Assembly (NCBI GenBank): GCA_035268685.1
Contig: DATFKK010000039.1
Coordinates: 1-38,814, forward strand
From: Candidatus Krumholzibacteriia bacterium
GTDB taxonomy: Bacteria; Krumholzibacteriota; Krumholzibacteriia; JAJRXK01
DNA: 38,814 bases
Direction: 5' to 3'
Shown: positions 24,812-36,482 of the stretch, in pieces
How the letters are laid out: each line of letters opens with the position of its first letter
Position numbering within the stretch: position 1 is the stretch's first letter
Translations under genes and position numbers: made by a program
The notes under the pieces: model-generated
The model's database searches: none
The model's input: only the letters and a program-made list of their open reading frames with translations
Told to the model about the DNA's origin: nothing

Positions 24812-25972
24812 ATGCCCTTCTACCACCGTCTCGGACAGCTGCCGCCCAAGCGCCATCAGGCGATGGAGAAGCCGGGCGGCGGGATGCACTTCGAGCAGCT
24901 CATGGGCAACAAGGGCTTCGTGGGCCCGTCGACGCTCATGTACCACCTCCACTACCCCACCGAGGTCCGCGACATCCGCAGCCGCGGCGACCGGCGTCTC
25001 GTTGCGACCGAAGAGCGCGAACTGCGCCCGCGCCATCTGCGGACCAGCGGCCTGAGCGATGGCGGAAGCATGGTCCTCGACCGCGTCCCGTTGCTGTTCA
25101 ACGCCGACTGCGCGCTCTATCACGCGCGCCCCGACTCCGACGACGACTTCTTCTATCGCAACGGCCAGGCCGACGAACTCGTCTACGTCGCCACCGGCGA
25201 GGGTAGCCTCCACTCGCAGATGGGCGCGATCGCCGTGCGCGCCGGCGACTACGTGGTCGTCCCCCGGGGTATCGTCCACCAGTGGCGATTCCGCGGCGAA
25301 GCACCACGTCTGTTGATCACCGAGAGCCGTGGCTACGTGCGCACGCCCGAACGCTACCGCAACGAGTTCGGTCAGCTGATCGAGGGGGCCCCGTACGGGG
25401 AGCGCGACTTCCGACGACCCGAGGAGCTCGAGACCTTCGACGAAAAGGGCGATTTTCCGGTGGTCACCAAGCAAGACGACCACCTGACCGAGTTCGTCCT
25501 CGACCACCACCCCTTCGATGTCGTGGGCTGGGACGGCTATTACTACCCGTTCGCCTTCTCGATCCACGACTTCGAACCGAAGGTCGGCGCATACCATCTA
25601 CCACCGCCCGTGCACCAGACCTTCGAGGGCGACGGCTTCGTGATCTGCAGCTTCTGTCCGCGCCCCTACGACTTCGGTGACGGCGCCGTGCCGGCCCCGT
25701 ACTTCCACAGCAACGTGTGGAGCGACGAGGTCATCTACTACGCCAGCCAGGAGTTCATGAGCCGCAAGGGCATCGAGTTCGGATCGATCACCCTGCATCC
25801 CGACGGTCTCCCCCACGGTCCGCAGCCGGGACGCATGGAGGCGTCGATCGGTGCGAAGTGGGCCGACGAGCTGGCGGTGATGGTCGACACCTTCCGGCCG
25901 CTCCGTCTGGCCGTCGAAGCCCGCGAGGTCGAGGACCGCGACTACTGGAAGAGCTGGCAGTCGGCGGAGTGA
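24812..25972 (+). CDS. hmgA: Homogentisate 1,2-dioxygenase
   Basis: The 386-residue cupin-type dioxygenase opens the ring of homogentisate to maleylacetoacetate using Fe(II). Recognisable parts are FYHRLGQLPPKRH at the N-terminus, ELVYVATGEGSLHSQMG (cupin strands), VVPRGIVHQWRF, and the metal region APYFHSNVWSDEVIYY with GSITLHPDGLPHGPQPG. The length is shorter than the human-type enzyme (about 445), but this compact form is common in bacteria. The start is ATG 24812 with GGGAG just upstream. It converges on the Nudix gene with only two bases between stop codons, so no terminator separates them. Confidence 0.95.
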   Translation: MPFYHRLGQLPPKRHQAMEKPGGGMHFEQLMGNKGFVGPSTLMYHLHYPTEVRDIRSRGDRRLVATEERELRPRHLRTSGLSDGGSMVLDRVPLLFNADCALYHARPDSDDDFFYRNGQADELVYVATGEGSLHSQMGAIAVRAGDYVVVPRGIVHQWRFRGEAPRLLITESRGYVRTPERYRNEFGQLIEGAPYGERDFRRPEELETFDEKGDFPVVTKQDDHLTEFVLDHHPFDVVGWDGYYYPFAFSIHDFEPKVGAYHLPPPVHQTFEGDGFVICSFCPRPYDFGDGAVPAPYFHSNVWSDEVIYYASQEFMSRKGIEFGSITLHPDGLPHGPQPGRMEASIGAKWADELAVMVDTFRPLRLAVEAREVEDRDYWKSWQSAE

Positions 25973-25974
25973 AC

Positions 25975-26526
25975 TCAGAAGAGGTCGCGCGGCGGCGGAG
26001 GTGCGTCGACAGGCGTGCCGAAGGGTGCGATCGGAGACCGACCGCGGACCTCCAGGAAGTGGCGCAGCGCCCAGGTGTTCGTGGGAAAGGCGAGATCGTC
26101 CCATGGGATCTCGTCGGCGGTGAACAGGCGTGCCTCGATGGACTCGGGGCCCGGATCGATCGTCGACTCCAGCATGCGGCCCCGGTACACGAGATGCACC
26201 TGACCGATGTGCGACAGGGAATAGACGGCGAGCAGGTCGTCCACGGCGATCCGTGCGCCCGTCTCCTCCAGGGTCTCGCGAATGGCGCCCGCCTCGGTGG
26301 ATTCGCCGACCTCCATGAAGCCACCGGGAACCGTCCAGTAGCCCACCCGCGGTTCGATCGCGCGGCGGCAGAGCAGGATCCCGTCGTCCCACGTCGCCAG
26401 CGCGCCCACGACCAGACGCGGGTTCTCGTAGTGGATCCACCCGCAGGACCGGCAGACCATGCGCTCGCGGTCGTCGTCGTCGGGGACTCGACGCTCGAAG
26501 TCGGGATTGCGGTCGGATGAAACCAT
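25975..26526 (-). CDS. Nudix hydrolase with partial zinc ribbon
   Basis: The 183-residue protein has a Nudix box, GGFMEV-G-ESTEAGAIRETLEETGA (about 68-91), with the metal-binding Glu cluster REtlEE. Before it, DDRERMVCRSCGWIHYENP is the second half of the zinc ribbon found in ADP-ribose/NADH-type Nudix proteins; only Cys25 and Cys28 are present and the usual first CxxC pair is missing. Such enzymes cut nucleoside diphosphates linked to another moiety; the substrate is unknown. I start at ATG 26526. Its start codon overlaps the ATG of the divergent DUF3810 gene (CATG, 26524-26527). Confidence 0.85.
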   Translation of the reverse strand: MVSSDRNPDFERRVPDDDDRERMVCRSCGWIHYENPRLVVGALATWDDGILLCRRAIEPRVGYWTVPGGFMEVGESTEAGAIRETLEETGARIAVDDLLAVYSLSHIGQVHLVYRGRMLESTIDPGPESIEARLFTADEIPWDDLAFPTNTWALRHFLEVRGRSPIAPFGTPVDAPPPPRDLF

Positions 26527-27706
26527 GAACGATCCGGGGAAGCGGGAAGTCCCAACGGTAGGCCCAGCCGTACTCGGCAACAAGCCCGCGCGCCGCATCG
26601 CGCTGCTGGCGGCGGGGCCGGTCGCCTGGGCGGCGAGCGCGGCCCTGGGATCGGCGGCACCGGGTCTCGTGGAGTCGCTCTACGGAGGTTCCCTCGGTGC
26701 CGCCGTGGGCTTCGCGCTGGCCCGCGCCACCGGCTGGATTCCCGTCTCGGTCGCCGAGGTCCTCCTGGCAGGCTTCGTCGTGGCCGAACTGGCCCGTCTG
26801 GCCGAGGGGCTGCGGCGATCGCCGCGTTCCCGCCGCCTGGCACGGGCAGTGGTCCTCGTGGCCCGCGATCTCAGCGTGGTCGTGGCTCTGTTCTACGTGG
26901 TGTGGGGGTTCCACTACGCGCGCCCCACCCTACCCGAGCGCGCGGGCTGGCCGACCCCCGAGGTCGACCTCGCGGGGCGCGTCGCCCTCGCCGAGGCTGC
27001 GGTCGACCGCGTCAACGCGCTGTACGTGCGCCTGCACGGCACCGAGGACGCCGGCCGTCCGACCGCTGCCCCGACCGATCTCGCCGCCCTGGACCGGGCG
27101 CTGGAGATCTCGTGGCGCGCGATCCCCGACCGTGTCGGTCTCCCCGAGACCGCGGGCTGGGACCGCGGACCGGTCAAACCCCTGCTGATCTCGCCGCTCC
27201 TGCACCGACTGGGACTGTCGGGGTTCTACTTCCCGTTCACCGGCGAGGCCAACGTCAACGACGACGTGCCGATCGTCCAGCGTGCCCGCGTGATGTCCCA
27301 CGAGAAGGCCCACCAGCGGGGTGTCGGTCCCGAGGACGAGGCGAACTTCCTGGGTTGGCTCGCCGCGGCCACGGCCGACCACCTGCACGCCCGCTACGCC
27401 GCCGCCAGCTTCGCGTCGCGCCAGCTCATCCGGACGCTGCCCGGCGAAGAGAGAGAGCGGCTGGTGGCGCGTCGGGTGGCGGGCGTCCAGCGCGACGTGA
27501 ACGACCTCTACGCCTACTGGGTGGCTGCACGCGGACCGGCGCGAACCCTGAGCCGCCGCGTCAACCACGCCTACCTGCGCAGCAACCGCGTCGCAGGCGG
27601 CGTGGACAGCTACGGCCGCAGCGTCCGTCTCCTGTTGGCCTACGCCGCGCTGCGCGGCGACCTGGACGTCGCAGCCGAACCGCCGACTCCTTCTGGACCC
27701 CGCTGA
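26525..27706 (+). CDS. DUF3810-family membrane protein with HExxH motif
   Basis: The 393-residue protein has about three membrane helices in the first 130 residues. The catalytic-looking domain contains GEANVNDDVP, then MSHEKAHQRGVGPEDEANFLGWLA. HEKAH at 259-263 with nearby Glu/Asn (EDEANF, 270-275) is the DUF3810 signature and matches a zinc-metallopeptidase site. The family is common in Bacteroidota and relatives; its substrate is not known to me. ATG 26525 is the only good start, although its ribosome site (GGATG) is weak. The aminotransferase follows after 14 bp. Confidence 0.78.
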   Translation: MNDPGKREVPTVGPAVLGNKPARRIALLAAGPVAWAASAALGSAAPGLVESLYGGSLGAAVGFALARATGWIPVSVAEVLLAGFVVAELARLAEGLRRSPRSRRLARAVVLVARDLSVVVALFYVVWGFHYARPTLPERAGWPTPEVDLAGRVALAEAAVDRVNALYVRLHGTEDAGRPTAAPTDLAALDRALEISWRAIPDRVGLPETAGWDRGPVKPLLISPLLHRLGLSGFYFPFTGEANVNDDVPIVQRARVMSHEKAHQRGVGPEDEANFLGWLAAATADHLHARYAAASFASRQLIRTLPGEERERLVARRVAGVQRDVNDLYAYWVAARGPARTLSRRVNHAYLRSNRVAGGVDSYGRSVRLLLAYAALRGDLDVAAEPPTPSGPR

Positions 27707-29520: not shown

Positions 29521-29574
29521 AGCACGGCGAGACCAGTGCAGCCGGGATTCCGCCGGTACAGAGGTGATTCGCAC

Positions 29575-29603
29575 TTCGTCGGATTCCTGTCGGGTGCTAG
29601 ACT
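29575..29603 (+). promoter_or_regulatory. Extended -10 promoter for the CarH-like regulator
   Basis: TGCTAGACT (29595-29603) is an extended -10 with TAGACT at 29598-29603; a weak TTCGTC lies 17 bp upstream. The start site near 29610 supports TTG 29668 rather than the earlier GTG 29536 as the translation start. Confidence 0.5.
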
Positions 29604-29629
29604 CGCCGGAATCTCGAAAATCACCATCC

Positions 29630-29647
29630 GTTCCGGCTGTTCCGGCC
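29630..29647. repeat. Tandem 9-bp repeat in the regulator leader
   Basis: GTTCCGGCT (29630-29638) is followed at once by GTTCCGGCC (29639-29647). A back-to-back repeat 20-37 bp past the proposed start site could be a self-regulatory binding site for the adjacent MerR-type protein. This is unproven. Confidence 0.35.
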
Positions 29648-29667
29648 CCGTCCCGGCAGGTCCTCCG

Positions 29668-30663
29668 TTGAACGACGATCGTCTTCGCCCCCGGCATCCG
29701 ATCCAGGTCGCCGCCCGCCGTGCCGGCCTGAACCCCGCCCTCCTCCGTGCCTGGGAACGCCGCTACCAGGCGGTCCGTCCCTCGCGCAGCGAGACCCGGC
29801 AACGCCTCTATTCCGACCAGGACGTCGAGCGTCTCCGCCGTCTGCGGATCGTGACCGACGCGGGACGTCGGATCAGCGAGGTCGCCGCGCTCGGCGACGA
29901 GCAACTGGCTGCCCTCCTGACCGAGGACGCCGTCCAGCACCGGGCCCTGACCCCGGCCGGGGTTCCGGGTCGACCCTCGCTCGAGCAGCTGCTCGGACGC
30001 GCTCGCGCGCGCGTCCGCGACCGCGACGAGCGCGGCCTCCGCCGCGAGCTCGAACGCGCCGTTCTTCTCTACGATCCGCTGCTGTTCCTCGACGAGGTAC
30101 TCGGCGCGCTCGTGGAGCGCGGGGGATCTGCGTGGGCCGACCGCACCCTCGACCCGAGCCACGAGCACGTCACCAGCATCGTCGTCCGGACCCTGCTGGA
30201 AGACCTTCTGGTGCGCCTCCAGCCCGATCACCCGCGAGCACGGGTCGCCGTGGCCGTCCCTGCCGGCGAGCGTCACGAACTCGGCGGATTCGCGCTCTCG
30301 GTGGCCCTGGCGGTGTGCGGCTGCGACGGCCTGCGCCTCGGAGCCGAACTGCCCCCGAACACGATCGTCCGCCTCGCCCACGAGCAGTCCGTGGAGGCGG
30401 TCGCCCTCTCCGTGACGTGGGAGGGCGACACCCGCCGTCTCGAAGAGGAGCTCCTCGATCTGCGCCGGGCGCTGGACCCTTCCGTCCAGATGATCGTCGG
30501 GGGATGGGGCAGTCGGCGTCTCGAGCGGGTGATCGAGCGGATCGGCGCCGTCGCTCCGACCCGGCTGCAGGAGCTGCCCCGGGCGATCGATCGTATGCTG
30601 GACCATGCCCAGGAACGCCGCCCCCGTCGCGACGAGTTCGATGACCAATCCATCGCCAGCTGA
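29668..30663 (+). CDS. carH: CarH-like B12-dependent photoreceptor transcription regulator (MerR type)
   Basis: The 331-residue protein has a MerR-type DNA-binding domain (about 10-75; LLRAWERRYQAVRPSRSETRQRLYS). A helical B12-capping domain holds W156 and, nine residues later, E166-H167: the W-x9-EH motif of CarH. A Rossmann B12-binding domain follows, with the ExHxxG motif at Glu201, His203 and Gly206. CarH uses adenosylcobalamin to repress genes in the dark and releases DNA in light. The residue after the Trp is Ala157, where Thermus CarH has the second light-state His ligand, so light chemistry may differ. The start is TTG 29668, which fits the promoter; GTG 29536 precedes it. Confidence 0.85.
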   Translation: MNDDRLRPRHPIQVAARRAGLNPALLRAWERRYQAVRPSRSETRQRLYSDQDVERLRRLRIVTDAGRRISEVAALGDEQLAALLTEDAVQHRALTPAGVPGRPSLEQLLGRARARVRDRDERGLRRELERAVLLYDPLLFLDEVLGALVERGGSAWADRTLDPSHEHVTSIVVRTLLEDLLVRLQPDHPRARVAVAVPAGERHELGGFALSVALAVCGCDGLRLGAELPPNTIVRLAHEQSVEAVALSVTWEGDTRRLEEELLDLRRALDPSVQMIVGGWGSRRLERVIERIGAVAPTRLQELPRAIDRMLDHAQERRPRRDEFDDQSIAS

Positions 30664-31099
30664 TCCCCTCGGCCAGCATGCGATCGCATTCTTCAGGGCC
30701 CTGTCGGTTCACCGCCTCGACCTCGTCGACGATTTCTACGCCGTCGACGTCCACTTCGAGGATCCCATGGTGAGCCTCGACGGCCGCGACCGGATGCGCT
30801 CCTATTACGCACAGGTCTACCGCAACGACCCGGCCCTGCGCTGGGAATTCCCCGAGGTGATCGGCGATCCCCCCTCCCGATCGCGCGGTATGGTCTGGAT
30901 CATGCACATGCAGGTCGACGGCCTGAACGGGGGCCGGCCGATCTCGGTGCCGGGAATGTCGCGGCTGATCTTCGACGACGACGATCGCTGCATCTTCCAC
31001 CGGGACTACTTCGACATGGGAGCCTTCGTGTACGAGAACGTGCCCGTGCTCCGCAACGTCGTGGGCTACGTGAAGAAGAAGCTGCACGGCGAGTTCTGA
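30641..31099 (+). CDS. NTF2/SnoaL-like small protein
   Basis: The 152-residue protein has a nuclear transport factor 2 fold. LGQHAIAFFRALSVHRLDLVDDFYAVDVHFEDPMVSLDGRDRMRSYYAQVY is typical of the SnoaL/DUF2358-like group. Such folds serve as isomerases, hydrolases or binding proteins; the active residues are not clear enough to choose. It overlaps the CarH gene by 23 bp (or 59 bp if ATG 30605 is used; neither has a strong ribosome site). NTF2-like genes often accompany LitR/CarH regulators in light-induced clusters, which fits this context. Confidence 0.75.
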   Translation: MTNPSPADPLGQHAIAFFRALSVHRLDLVDDFYAVDVHFEDPMVSLDGRDRMRSYYAQVYRNDPALRWEFPEVIGDPPSRSRGMVWIMHMQVDGLNGGRPISVPGMSRLIFDDDDRCIFHRDYFDMGAFVYENVPVLRNVVGYVKKKLHGEF

Positions 31100-31109
31100 C
31101 GGGACCACC

Positions 31110-32189
31110 ATGACCCGACGCCCCGCACACAGCCTGCGGGCCGTGCTGGCCCGATGCATGGGACTCCCCGGCGCCCAACCCTGGGTCGATGCCGCGACGA
31201 TCGAACTCGCGACGTCCCTGGGACTTGCCGCGGTCACCGCCCACGCCGTGACGACGGGCGCCGCACGCGCCGGTGCCGGTGGGCGTTGGACCGAACGTCT
31301 GGTTCGCGCCGCGGCCCGGGAACAGGCCCTCGTGCTCGCGAGCGAGGACGAGGCGTCGCGCGTGGTCGCACGGTTGCACGGCGCGGGCATCCCGAGCATC
31401 GCGCTCAAGGGGCTGGCCTCGAACGCCGTGGTGCACGCCCCGCACGGCTGGTGCCGCGCACCCGGCGACGTCGACCTGCTCGTGCCCGGGTCCCGTGCGG
31501 ACGAAGCCCGCGCCCTCTTCGCCGCAGACCCCGCCTACGCGGCCGTGGAGGACCTCGAGGCGGAGTTCTACGAGAACCACCACCACCTGCAACCCTTCGT
31601 GCGGCGCGATCGTGCCGCGACGCCGATCGAACTCCACCGCCGGATCTCCGGCGTGACCACCGGCGACGTCCGGATCGACCACGAGGGTTGTTGGGCCCGC
31701 GCCGTTGCCCATCCGTCGCTCGGACCGGGCGCGCTGCGCCTCGACGACGTCGACCAGTGCCTCGCCACGATCATCCACATCGACCGTGACGACGCCTACA
31801 TGCGCCGCGCACGTCAACTCCTGGACCTGGCCCTGTGGTGGGAACGCTGCGCGGACCGCCGCGAAGATCTCTGGGCCCGCGCCGAACGGTGGAACGCCAC
31901 GTCGACGGTCGAGCGCGCGCTGACCGTTCTGGACGCCTTCCTGGGCGGATCAAGGACGACTGGACGCCACGACGCCACGGCACCGAGCCGCGGGACCCGC
32001 CTGTGGCGAATGCTGGCCCTGGATTCGGTGACCTTCGCCGATCGCCGATCCGTGTTCCCCGGCTGGTACCGGAATGCGGTGCTTCGCGCATTGATCCACG
32101 AACAGGACCCGGGGAGGGTCCTGTCGCGGATCGTTCGCCCTGTTCTCGGAGGCCCGCCCTGGGACCGAGGCGAGCCGGGCGCTGCCTAG
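31110..32189 (+). CDS. NTP_transf_5-family nucleotidyltransferase
   Basis: The 359-residue protein matches the uncharacterised nucleotidyltransferases found in lasso-peptide and HPr-rel-A clusters. GIPSIALKGLASNAVVHAP is followed by CRAPGDVDLLVPG, placing the catalytic Asp pair at 120 and 122. YENHHHLQPFVRRDRAATPIELHRRISG holds further conserved His residues. DRDDAYMRRARQLLDLALW follows. It begins 10 bp after the NTF2 gene, so it may be co-transcribed with the B12 regulator. Its stop overlaps the stop of the opposing 45-residue peptide gene (CTAG, 32186-32189). Its likely substrate is an adjacent peptide or small molecule; this is inferred. Confidence 0.82.
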   Translation: MTRRPAHSLRAVLARCMGLPGAQPWVDAATIELATSLGLAAVTAHAVTTGAARAGAGGRWTERLVRAAAREQALVLASEDEASRVVARLHGAGIPSIALKGLASNAVVHAPHGWCRAPGDVDLLVPGSRADEARALFAADPAYAAVEDLEAEFYENHHHLQPFVRRDRAATPIELHRRISGVTTGDVRIDHEGCWARAVAHPSLGPGALRLDDVDQCLATIIHIDRDDAYMRRARQLLDLALWWERCADRREDLWARAERWNATSTVERALTVLDAFLGGSRTTGRHDATAPSRGTRLWRMLALDSVTFADRRSVFPGWYRNAVLRALIHEQDPGRVLSRIVRPVLGGPPWDRGEPGAA

Positions 32190-32323
32190 GGCATGTGCCA
32201 GAAGAGCTTACGCCCTTCTCGCGAACCGGACCCACTGGCGTCGAAACCGGTGTAGAGGGTGATCTCCTTGAGATCCTCGCGCGCAATGATGGCGGGTGTC
32301 TCGTAGGTCTTCTTCGGCTGCAT
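32186..32323 (-). CDS. Candidate RiPP precursor peptide with lasso-type leader
   Basis: This 45-residue peptide, MQPKKTYETPAI..., lies in the same-strand cluster with B1, B2 and kinase genes. AGGAG stands eight bases before ATG 32323. The leader holds Tyr7-x-x-Pro10 and Ile12, and Thr22 falls at the same distance from that Pro as the conserved Thr(-2) of lasso leaders (12 residues in lariatin). That puts the core start at Tyr24. The core then reads YTGFDASGSGS, continues REGRK and ends LFWHMP. Asp/Glu occur at core positions 5 and 13 only, not 7-9, so the classical lasso ring is not predicted. Ser30, 32 and 34 are candidate kinase sites. It may be another peptide class; as a gene it is well supported by its ribosome site and context. 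Confidence 0.7.
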   Translation of the reverse strand: MQPKKTYETPAIIAREDLKEITLYTGFDASGSGSREGRKLFWHMP

Positions 32324-32404
32324 CTGTACAACTCCTGGCGTCAGGACCCGATTCGAGCCCGGCGCGTGTTCTGGACCGCGCGGGAGCCACGATCTACACC
32401 CCGG

Positions 32405-32410
32405 AGTATA
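32405..32410 (-). promoter_or_regulatory. -10 element for the peptide gene
   Basis: Read on the minus strand this is TATACT, the best -10 in the region, 82 bp before the peptide start. The -35 is poor (CGGCGT at 17 bp). It suggests separate, stronger transcription of the peptide. Confidence 0.5.
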
Positions 32411-32417
32411 CCGGATC

Positions 32418-32438
32418 CTGCCGGCGAACGCCGGGCAG
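32418..32438 (-). terminator. Hairpin after the kinase gene
   Basis: CTGCC plus GGC pair with GCC plus GGCAG around GTTC (minus strand) with one bulged C, 22 bp past the kinase stop. It could end or weaken transcripts from upstream so that the peptide relies on its own promoter. No T tract follows. Confidence 0.4.
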
Positions 32439-32460
32439 AATTCACGTTCGACCGTCGATT

Positions 32461-33468
32461 TTACAGTCGTGTCGCAGGTTTCCCGTCGGCCCCGCCGGCG
32501 GACGCCCCCGCGAGAGCACACAGGCGATCCGTGGCCTCCACGAGGTCCGCGCCGACGAGGAGCCGGTGGCACGCAGCGGTCTCGCAGACTCCCGCCAGCA
32601 GATCGAACTGGCGCCGCGACGTAGCGCGCTCGCTGGGCACGAGACTCTGCTTGAGCAGTCGGCTGAGCGCGTCGCTTGGTGAAAGTCCATCGCAAATCGA
32701 CGTGTCGGCATCGTGGATCCGGGGGAACACGATCCACCGGACGCGTGCCGTTTCGACGGGAGTGAGCCCCTCGACGGCGTGCACGGGCAAGAACCACTTC
32801 CCGGCACCGGCTCGACGCTCCGCGCGCGACCTCGACGCCGGCGGCAGCAGGGCCTCGAGCGTGGGGTCGGTGAGGTGCAGCGGCGACCAGCGCGCCCCGA
32901 CCACCGGCACGCTCTCGTCCCCAGCGCCGTCGAGATAGCAGGTGTCATCGCCCAGGAATCCCCATCCCCGGAGGGCCATGGCGAGGCTCAGGGTGGTCTT
33001 CCCGGAACCCGACGCACCGCACAGGAGCATGGCGTCGCCGCCGGCCGTGACGGCCCCCGCGTGGACGGAATACAGGGAGCGTGCCTTCAGCAGCTCCACC
33101 ACCACCGGATCGAGCAGTCGGTGTCCCGGGAGCCAGGCGTGCGCCTCCACACCCTCGTCGAGGTGGACCCTGGCGGTACCGGTCTCGGGCTCGACCCTGG
33201 CCCATCCCACGCCGTCGGACTCGATCACCAGGGCTCCGTCCGTCGCGGCGGAGAAGCGCGTCCCGTCGGCGGCCACACCGAGCGAAGCACCGCGCGGGGG
33301 CTTCGCGGTGCCGAGGCCGTGCGCGATCTCGATCTCGAGATCCGGTGCCTCCGGTCCGCCGGGCGCACGATGGGCCGCAAAGATCTCGTCGAGCACTCTC
33401 GCCGAGCCCTCGTCGCGTGCGGTGACGGCGAGGCGTCGACCGTGGATCCGGTAGTCGCATCGATTCAC
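32461..33468 (-). CDS. HPr kinase-like serine kinase of a lasso/HPr-rel-type cluster
   Basis: The 335-residue protein has an HPrK/P-type fold. LYSVHAGAVTAGGDAMLLCGASGSGKTTLSLAMA supplies a conserved His near 136 and a Walker A loop (151-158), and WGFLGDDTCYL gives the following Asp pair near 174-175. In lasso clusters such kinases (PadeK type) phosphorylate the C-terminal Ser of the precursor; here the peptide ends in Pro, so an internal Ser/Thr is the candidate. HprK-related kinases also occur with PqqD-like proteins in exopolysaccharide-linked HPr-rel systems. The GTG start overlaps the B2 stop (GTGA). Confidence 0.85.
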   Translation of the reverse strand: MNRCDYRIHGRRLAVTARDEGSARVLDEIFAAHRAPGGPEAPDLEIEIAHGLGTAKPPRGASLGVAADGTRFSAATDGALVIESDGVGWARVEPETGTARVHLDEGVEAHAWLPGHRLLDPVVVELLKARSLYSVHAGAVTAGGDAMLLCGASGSGKTTLSLAMALRGWGFLGDDTCYLDGAGDESVPVVGARWSPLHLTDPTLEALLPPASRSRAERRAGAGKWFLPVHAVEGLTPVETARVRWIVFPRIHDADTSICDGLSPSDALSRLLKQSLVPSERATSRRQFDLLAGVCETAACHRLLVGADLVEATDRLCALAGASAGGADGKPATRL

Positions 33469-33863
33469 GGCAGTCGCTCCCCTTCACGCGCCGGAGTGCG
33501 CAGGAATTCCTCGTAGTCCTCGGTCTTGCCCTCGGGTTCTCCGAAGGGCGCTCCATCGATCTCGACCCAGGCGTGTCCCCGCTCCAGATGCCCGCGGAAC
33601 CGGACCCCGATCACGAGATCGGCGTCGTGTCCGTGATGGCGGAGCATGCGCGCCAGGCCGTAGGCACGTACGAGACAGGCGTCGCCCCGAAGGCGTCCGA
33701 GTGCTCGGCGGTAGGCACGGTGCACCGCCGCCGCAGACGCCCGGCGCCGTCCGGGAGACGTCGCGTCGAGACTCGACACGATCTCGCGGGCGCTCGAGCG
33801 GGCCACCCGTCGGCGGGCGCCCCACAGGTGCCAGAGTGCCTCGAGTTCGAGCATCAGACGCAA
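33465..33863 (-). CDS. Lasso B2-type transglutaminase-fold leader peptidase
   Basis: The 132-residue protein matches lasso peptide biosynthesis B2 proteins, which are cysteine proteases of transglutaminase fold that remove the leader. ALWHLWGARRRVARSSA opens it. The triad is Cys63 (GDACLVRAYGLARMLR), His97 (ERGHAWVEIDG) and Asp103. GVRFRGHLERGHAWVE is close to the family consensus. The start is TTG 33863 with AGGG about eight bases upstream; ATG 33854 is an alternative without a ribosome site. It is coupled to the kinase by a GTGA overlap and follows the RRE gene by 35 bp. Confidence 0.85.
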   Translation of the reverse strand: MRLMLELEALWHLWGARRRVARSSAREIVSSLDATSPGRRRASAAAVHRAYRRALGRLRGDACLVRAYGLARMLRHHGHDADLVIGVRFRGHLERGHAWVEIDGAPFGEPEGKTEDYEEFLRTPAREGERLP

Positions 33864-33898
33864 TGCGACCGCCCTGCGAGCGCCGCCCCTCGCCCGCG

Positions 33899-34201
33899 TC
33901 AGATCTCGAAGAGACCCTCGGCGAGCATGGTCTCGGCGAAATTGACCGTGTCACGCCGCGCCGTGTCCTCGTCGACGTCGAAGGCATCCATGACCGCAGC
34001 CACGATCTCGTCCACGGTCCGGCGCCCGTCGGCTGCGTTCCAGATCAGGGAACCGACGGGATTCAGCGTGGAGTACACGCTCGAGTCCAGGTTGAGGATC
34101 ACCACGTGATCGTCCAGCTCACGCCAGTGCGCACGCGCAGACCGGCGAGGTCGTGACTGTGGTCCCACCTTCGTCGACTTCGTGCCTCCGTCATCGACCA
34201 C
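33899..34201 (-). CDS. PqqD-like RiPP recognition element (lasso B1-type)
   Basis: The 100-residue protein is a PqqD-fold RiPP recognition element. WRELDDHVVILNLDSSVYSTLNPVGSLIWNAADGRRTVDEIV shows the winged-helix pattern and LNxxGxxIW motif, and the tail ends ETMLAEGLFEI. Such proteins bind leader peptides and deliver them to modifying enzymes. The start is GTG 34201 with GGGGAG six bases upstream. It is the first gene of the leftward run RRE-B2-kinase-peptide and has its own promoter. In HPr-rel-A systems a PqqD-family protein also partners the kinase; the B2 neighbour tilts the call toward a lasso-derived set. Confidence 0.83.
   Translation of the reverse strand: MVDDGGTKSTKVGPQSRPRRSARAHWRELDDHVVILNLDSSVYSTLNPVGSLIWNAADGRRTVDEIVAAVMDAFDVDEDTARRDTVNFAETMLAEGLFEI

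Positions 34202-34286: not shown

Positions 34287-36482
<2,196 letters not shown>

Follow-up and report, generated by a model that had tools for sequence, protein, structure and literature searches.

In the literature that we searched, one described system matches the genes considered here, the Linear Polyphosphorylated Peptides (LPPs), which were reported as restricted to Bacillota (Popov et al. 2026, Nat Commun, May 2026, PMC13381572). The core genes of LPP clusters encode a RiPP (ribosomally synthesized and post-translationally modified peptide) recognition element (RRE), an HprK-like kinase (LppK), an NTP transferase (LppN), an MsbA-like exporter and a SipW-like peptidase (LppS); the precursor carries the motif YxxPxVLxHQxIxFETxxS, cleavage removes the leader after T(-1), and LppK adds several phosphates to Ser3, the residue at +18 counted from the Tyr of the motif (PMC13381572). 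Phosphorylated lasso peptides of the Bsf type (Bradymonas, PMC10368454) and of the paeninodin/pseudomycoidin type (PMC9266682) share an RRE (B1), a B2 leader peptidase, an HprK-like kinase, a nucleotidyltransferase and a YxxP leader, and additionally have a cyclase, C, and a threaded macrolactam. Here we analyse a set of five genes in a 38,814-nt stretch of DNA from Candidatus Krumholzibacteriia bacterium (contig DATFKK010000039.1, assembly GCA_035268685.1; hereafter the window), which has these lasso-type parts but neither the cyclase nor a conserved acidic residue at core positions 7-9. We consider it probable that the set is an LPP-like RiPP system for a linear phosphorylated peptide, in which B2 replaces the SipW-like peptidase and no cyclase takes part.

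The minus strand carries, in this order, an LppB/B1-like RRE protein of the PqqD family (33899..34201, 100 aa, GTG start), a B2-type, transglutaminase-like cysteine leader peptidase (33465..33854, 129 aa), an HprK-like peptide kinase (32461..33468, 335 aa) and a 45-aa YxxP precursor peptide (32186..32323), which reads MQPKKTYETPAIIAREDLKEITL up to the predicted B2 cut and YTGFDASGSGSREGRKLFWHMP after it; an NTP_transf_5 nucleotidyltransferase-like protein (31110..32189, 359 aa) is encoded on the plus strand. The kinase gene overlaps the B2 stop by 4 bp and is separated by 137 nt from the peptide gene on the same strand, the ATG of which is preceded by an AGGAG ribosome-binding site 9 nt away, while the NTP_transf_5 gene is convergent with the peptide gene and terminates on its stop codon. 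All five open reading frames (ORFs) are intact and retain their catalytic residues. A preliminary description of this DNA was right to place the five parts together, since all lie at or within these coordinates, and also in stating that the cyclase is missing and the flanks unrelated: the window contains neither a cyclase gene nor an exporter gene, and the genes on both flanks are unrelated. Its statement that an exporter is absent holds for the window but not for the relatives, most of which have an ABC-2 exporter pair beside the set.

The set resembles LPP clusters in the lack of a cyclase, in the HprK-like kinase and the NTP transferase (NTP_transf_5 and LppN being likened by kind of gene, not by sequence), in a discrete RRE with an Asn/Asp leader-binding pair (N33/D70 of LppB), in a YxxP leader with Thr at +15 and Ser, here Ser/Thr, at +18, and in a predicted linear phosphorylated product. 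It differs in its leader peptidase (B2, against the SipW-like LppS), in the exporter of the relatives (an ABC-2 pair, against an MsbA-like protein), in its leader consensus (LKEITL, against HQxIxFET), in cores as short as 8 aa, and in occurring in Krumholzibacteriota and another phylum rather than in Bacillota. Because peptidase, exporter and phyla differ, we file the set as an LPP-like variant and not as an LPP.

Precursor register and enzyme motifs

Fifteen precursors from two phyla can be aligned unambiguously on Y-x-x-P...L-[KR]-x-[IL]-T, and all 15 share one register, with Tyr followed by Pro at +3, Thr at +15 and Ser/Thr at +18. The precursors were collected with the same profile, of which the window's own peptide is a row, so that the match in the leader is partly by construction, and sequences that are related do not count as independent; no selection was made on the +18 position as such, though the profile includes it. 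In the window's genome (99.3% complete, 202 contigs, searched family by family) the profile has a single match, inside the cluster, and the best family match of this peptide, lasso_cyano, reaches 15.5 bits, under the cut-off of 33. Four further precursors, from G118 and G120, obey the same register, whereas those of G303 and G268 have no Ser/Thr at +18, so that not every cyclase-less B2 set follows the rule. We also observed at least three precursors of the type FTTASNATGTSFF in G120, on contigs other than the enzyme contig. Of the LPP motif, the His at +8 is found in most relatives, and the FE part is absent. A PDB search with the precursor profile gave nothing significant; its best relevant line was the TfuA leader (6jx3_A, E 0.5), which has a Thr in the same register.

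The predicted cores, counted after T-x, are about 22 residues long in the window and 8-26 residues in the relatives. Five of them have only 8 residues (three in G013, one in G028 and G003a), which is too short for any known lasso, so that these five cannot be lassos. The window core starts YTGFDASGS, with no Asp/Glu at positions 7-9, and an acidic residue at these positions is not conserved among the 15 precursors. The locus thus shows the B1 RRE, the B2 and the YxxP leader with Thr near the cut that characterize lasso clusters, and lacks their cyclase and core Asp/Glu. A linear product is strongly implied. The 8-residue cores with one conserved Ser/Thr also offer short substrates for the kinase, B2 and NTP_transf_5.

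The RRE protein matches PF05402 (PqqD) with 67.6 bits (1.2e-18) and NF033536 with 42 bits, and aligns with LppB (PDB 9x8z_B, 7.7e-5), its Asn47, Asp84 and Phe88 falling on N33, D70 and F74. Asn47 and Asp84 are conserved in the four proteins aligned, and N33 and D70 are the LppB residues shown to hold the YxxP leader (PMC13381572). A role in PQQ biosynthesis was rejected, as the protein scores 24.4 bits against the TIGR03859 cut-off of 46 and no pqq genes were recognised nearby.

In the kinase, H136, G151, G154, G156, K157, T158, D174 and D175 are spaced exactly as in the catalytic motif of BsfK, the kinase of a lasso cluster, which phosphorylates core Ser3 and accepts Thr as well (PMC10368454), and its AlphaFold2 model matches the PEPCK and HprK/P folds. 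Its best model match, TIGR04352, amounts to 58 bits, under the cut-off of 200, and the comparison with HPr-rel-A systems drawn in the preliminary description fails on this score: those systems share an HprK-related kinase and a PqqD-like protein with the window, which has a B2 protease and a YxxP precursor besides. SynChlorMet (Scm) cassettes, which likewise combine a PqqD-like protein and an HprK-like kinase, were also set aside (ScmC 12.4 bits, cut-off 125; ScmD 39.1, cut-off 100), and the cluster has no recognisable radical SAM gene.

The B2 protein matches PF13471 with 69 bits and NF033537 (lasso_biosyn_B2) with 62.3 bits, over the cut-off of 33, and its Cys60, His94 and Glu106 (H+12) are conserved in relatives. 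Its AlphaFold2 model has a pLDDT of 85.6. Foldseek returned no significant match for this model, so that the identification rests on the sequence models and the catalytic residues. Neither the window cluster nor the genes listed for L016, L021, L069, L106 and L169-L174 include a recognisable SipW-like (SpI) peptidase, no genome-wide search having been made. The surprise expressed earlier at finding a B2 here is justified in relation to the published LPPs, with their SipW-like peptidase; the combination of B2 and an HprK-like kinase in the absence of a cyclase does, however, recur in several phyla.

NTP_transf_5 scores 81.8 bits against PF14907, and its homologues adjoin B2 and the kinase in relatives. 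A possible role is suggested by PsmN, a nucleotidyltransferase homologue of another cluster, which was reported to be needed for a hexose on phospho-Ser (PMC9266682), while LppN was without effect in its heterologous host (PMC13381572). We predict by analogy that NTP_transf_5 is a secondary modifier of the phosphorylated core.

Put together, these features suggest a pathway in which the RRE would bind the YxxP motif of the leader and the kinase, held at a fixed distance, would phosphorylate the Ser/Thr lying 18 residues after the Tyr (Thr25 in the window). B2 would cut beside the invariant Thr at +15 (Thr22), probably one residue after it, as in lasso precursors; with such a cut, natural for B2, the acceptor would become core residue 2 instead of 3, its distance from the RRE motif being unchanged. 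NTP_transf_5 might then modify the phosphate, perhaps by adding a sugar in the manner reported for PsmN, and an ABC-2 exporter, found beside the set in most relatives and presumably encoded elsewhere in the window's genome, would export the product. The gene content, its conservation, the register and the motif residues are observed here, and each enzymatic step is extrapolated from characterised homologues.

Distribution and phylogeny of the set

We examined 80 Krumholzibacteriota genomes and a wider bacterial sample of 387 genomes. Among the former, B2 is present in 6/80 at E<=1e-3 and exceeds the family cut-off in four: the window's genome, G003, G013 and G033. G003, of the window's own family, has PqqD, B2, kinase, ABC ATPase and ABC-2 permease in a row with NTP_transf_5 convergent to them, and two precursors on other contigs. 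The single-contig chromosome of G013 has B2, NTP_transf_5, ABC and ABC-2, followed by two precursors, PqqD and the kinase, and in G033 precursor, PqqD and kinase are followed by ABC-2, ABC, NTP_transf_5 and B2 on the other strand. A fourth relative, G028, has precursor, PqqD, kinase and NTP_transf_5, with no B2 detected in its fragmented assembly. The stretches read of these four genomes contain no cyclase gene.

Searching the 387 genomes with the precursor profile led to a second phylum, represented by G315, where precursor, PqqD, kinase, B2, NTP_transf_5, ABC and ABC-2 form one compact run. The kinase is found at E<=1e-67 in 7/7 genomes examined of this phylum, each time beside PqqD, B2 and NTP_transf_5; in the loci read far enough the ABC-2 genes then follow, and PF00733 matches in these genomes are on different contigs from the set, except in G390, where the distance is about 309 kb. 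In the wider sample as a whole, B2 at E<=1e-6 occurs in 27/387 genomes, and many of these loci have no PF00733 protein in the stretch read, although the share of cyclase-less loci is approximate because some contigs are short. Since the window's genome has a single B2 (E<=1e-3) and two PqqD proteins, one of which sits in the cluster, and the set recurs in two phyla, the clustering of the parts is not due to chance. Had the window merely lost its C and D genes, as the preliminary description allowed, relatives should normally keep them, yet intact cyclase-less sets are what recurs in the two phyla.

In a tree of 32 kinases, the presence of a cyclase requires 2 changes against a mean of 7.3 when labels are shuffled (0/500 as low), a contrast inflated by near-copies; the kinases were gathered with a profile built from cyclase-less members. 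The window's kinase falls on the cyclase-less side. Only one kinase from a locus without a cyclase, G176c47, falls within the lasso group, and it is all but a copy of the kinase of a lasso locus. The profile scores largely separate as well, most cyclase-less loci outside the profile having 113-297 bits and lasso loci 27-58 bits, although a few cyclase-less loci (G146, G176c47) also score low. A contig scan with the kinase alignment returned 20 loci, among them a full lasso comparator, Aliiruegeria L073, and many short ORFs matching the P-loop region only, which are probably ordinary HprK. In the B2 tree the cyclase label requires 3 changes against 7.9 in shuffles.

Several observations speak against an LPP-like system. 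The window's precursor is the most divergent of those aligned, with Thr for Ser, no FxPP core and no His at +8, and LppK did not accept Thr (PMC13381572); BsfK, moreover, left Thr2 unmodified (PMC10368454), which counts here because the acceptor would be residue 2 with a B2 cut after T-L. The set lacks the SpI-like peptidase on which the definition of LPPs was based, and in the window NTP_transf_5 lies on the opposite strand and no exporter is present. While the cyclase-less set is the normal form in relatives, its distribution in Krumholzibacteriota is patchy (4/80 genomes with a B2 over the cut-off). The deepest split of the kinase tree, at its root, is weakly supported (28/84), and the B2s of the window and G003 group weakly with those of lasso clusters and not with other cyclase-less B2s, so that a separate acquisition of B2 in the window's family is possible. 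Even so, the suggestion that the cluster makes a linear, phosphorylated or decorated peptide is well supported by the cyclase-less relatives, the 8-residue cores and the Ser/Thr in the LPP phospho-acceptor register. For bench work, the set of G315 or G013 would be better than the divergent member in the window.

If the LPP-like reading is correct, the LPP concept gains two or more further phyla, in which another enzyme serves as leader peptidase, and the presence of B2 would seem not to mark a lasso peptide. Such sets would then be misread by software that recognises lasso clusters by B1 and B2, and overlooked by software that requires a cyclase. It also bears on whether LPPs arose from lasso systems through the loss of C, followed by a swap of the peptidase.

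Alternative readings and the cyclase question

One could also speculate that the set belongs to a separate, unrecognised class of B2-processed linear phosphopeptides with very short cores and several precursors per genome, all served in trans by a single enzyme set, the peptide being maybe a surface- or secretion-related modification and not an antibiotic. The 8-aa cores in several genomes, the 7/7 genomes of one phylum and nearby secreted Sortilin/BNR beta-propeller proteins are the basis for this idea, which we hold to be possible but less than probable; such a class would supply a missing link, namely lasso machinery that operates with no cyclase.

Less likely again is that the set acts on something besides the 45-aa peptide, either other precursors in trans or a protein, its product being a signal or a surface modification instead of a secreted natural product. 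Precursors of G003 and G013 are distant from the enzyme genes or encoded on separate contigs, and a large secreted beta-propeller protein is encoded near the precursor in L069, L105, L107 and L065; the sole profile precursor of the window's genome, however, sits in the cluster, and its leader has the expected RRE-binding and Thr positions.

That a paeninodin/Bsf-type lasso cluster has decayed here, with C and D lost in this lineage only, we regard as improbable and, in view of the relatives, as largely refuted. The patchiness within the family, where G001 and G002 have no B2 over threshold, and the weak grouping of the window's B2 with lasso B2s would fit decay, but the five intact ORFs with their catalytic residues, the absence of the cyclase common to relatives in two phyla, in compact runs without remnants, and the position of the kinase on the cyclase-less side of its tree do not.

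In the window's genome PF00733 matches AsnB, as well as an Asn-synthase-like protein of 499-550 aa encoded on contig C129 and two small ORFs, which we read as NadE and QueC from their size and surroundings. A genome search for an asparagine-synthetase-like cyclase, as envisaged earlier, thus does find a candidate in the C129 protein (25564-26568), which is without the usual N-terminal MCGI, but it lies among unrelated genes, matches the lasso cyclase model NF033535 with 15.1 bits in one C-terminal stretch (cut-off 525) and is absent from G003, and we rejected it for want of a lasso-cyclase signal; taken alone it would still be a conceivable cyclase, but the relatives leave no need for one. G003, 97% complete, has the full set and two precursors, and its sole PF00733 match is a 294-aa ORF of 24.7 bits, which disfavours the remote cyclase that the preliminary description had offered as an option. 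A true lasso peptide closed by the C129 protein is therefore the least credible reading, for although a second large Asn-synthase-like protein without MCGI exists and the set has the RRE, B2 and Thr known from lasso systems, that protein is far below the model cut-off among unrelated neighbours, the window core has no Asp/Glu at 7-9, the 8-residue cores of relatives are incapable of lasso formation and G003 is without any candidate.

Neighbouring genes and related loci

Large secreted Sortilin/BNR-like proteins starting ..EGGPYGGRV.. are encoded beside or near the precursor gene in two phyla (L069:10779-13031, L065:11252-13483, L105:7205-9406, L107:5541-7733); in L065, PqqD and the kinase lie between the precursor and the beta-propeller protein. 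The peptide may have these proteins as partners or targets; the two of them that were tested have C-terminal domains resembling FlgD.

Cyclase-less sets of PqqD, HprK-like kinase, B2 and radical SAM genes occur in other lineages (L184:9750-12516, L183:10024-12982, L187:2634-9879, L182:8934-13548). They are a different subtype, SynChlorMet-like though under the SynChlorMet model cut-offs, and differ by their radical SAM gene, which was observed neither in the window nor in the Krumholzibacteriota and f106 loci compared. In an actinomycetotal locus (L075:8323-10827), a PqqD-like protein, NTP_transf_5, an HprK-like kinase and a second PqqD-like protein stand beside secreted proteins, without B2 or cyclase.

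The second PqqD-like protein of the window's genome is a stand-alone gene on contig C172 (L015:8865-9197). Its neighbours encode a lipoamide dehydrogenase and a transporter, and no RiPP genes were recognised around it. Within the window, a Peptidase S46 (Dpp7-like) gene (34287-36482) lies on the same strand as the RRE gene, about 86 nt upstream, and is probably a mere neighbour, since it was not seen beside the set in relatives. On the other side, positions 29536-30663 encode a regulator that, from its sequence, resembles MerR-type DNA-binding and B12-binding domains, and a SnoaL-like protein (30605-31099) is encoded 10 nt upstream of NTP_transf_5 on the same strand, so that the two may be co-transcribed.

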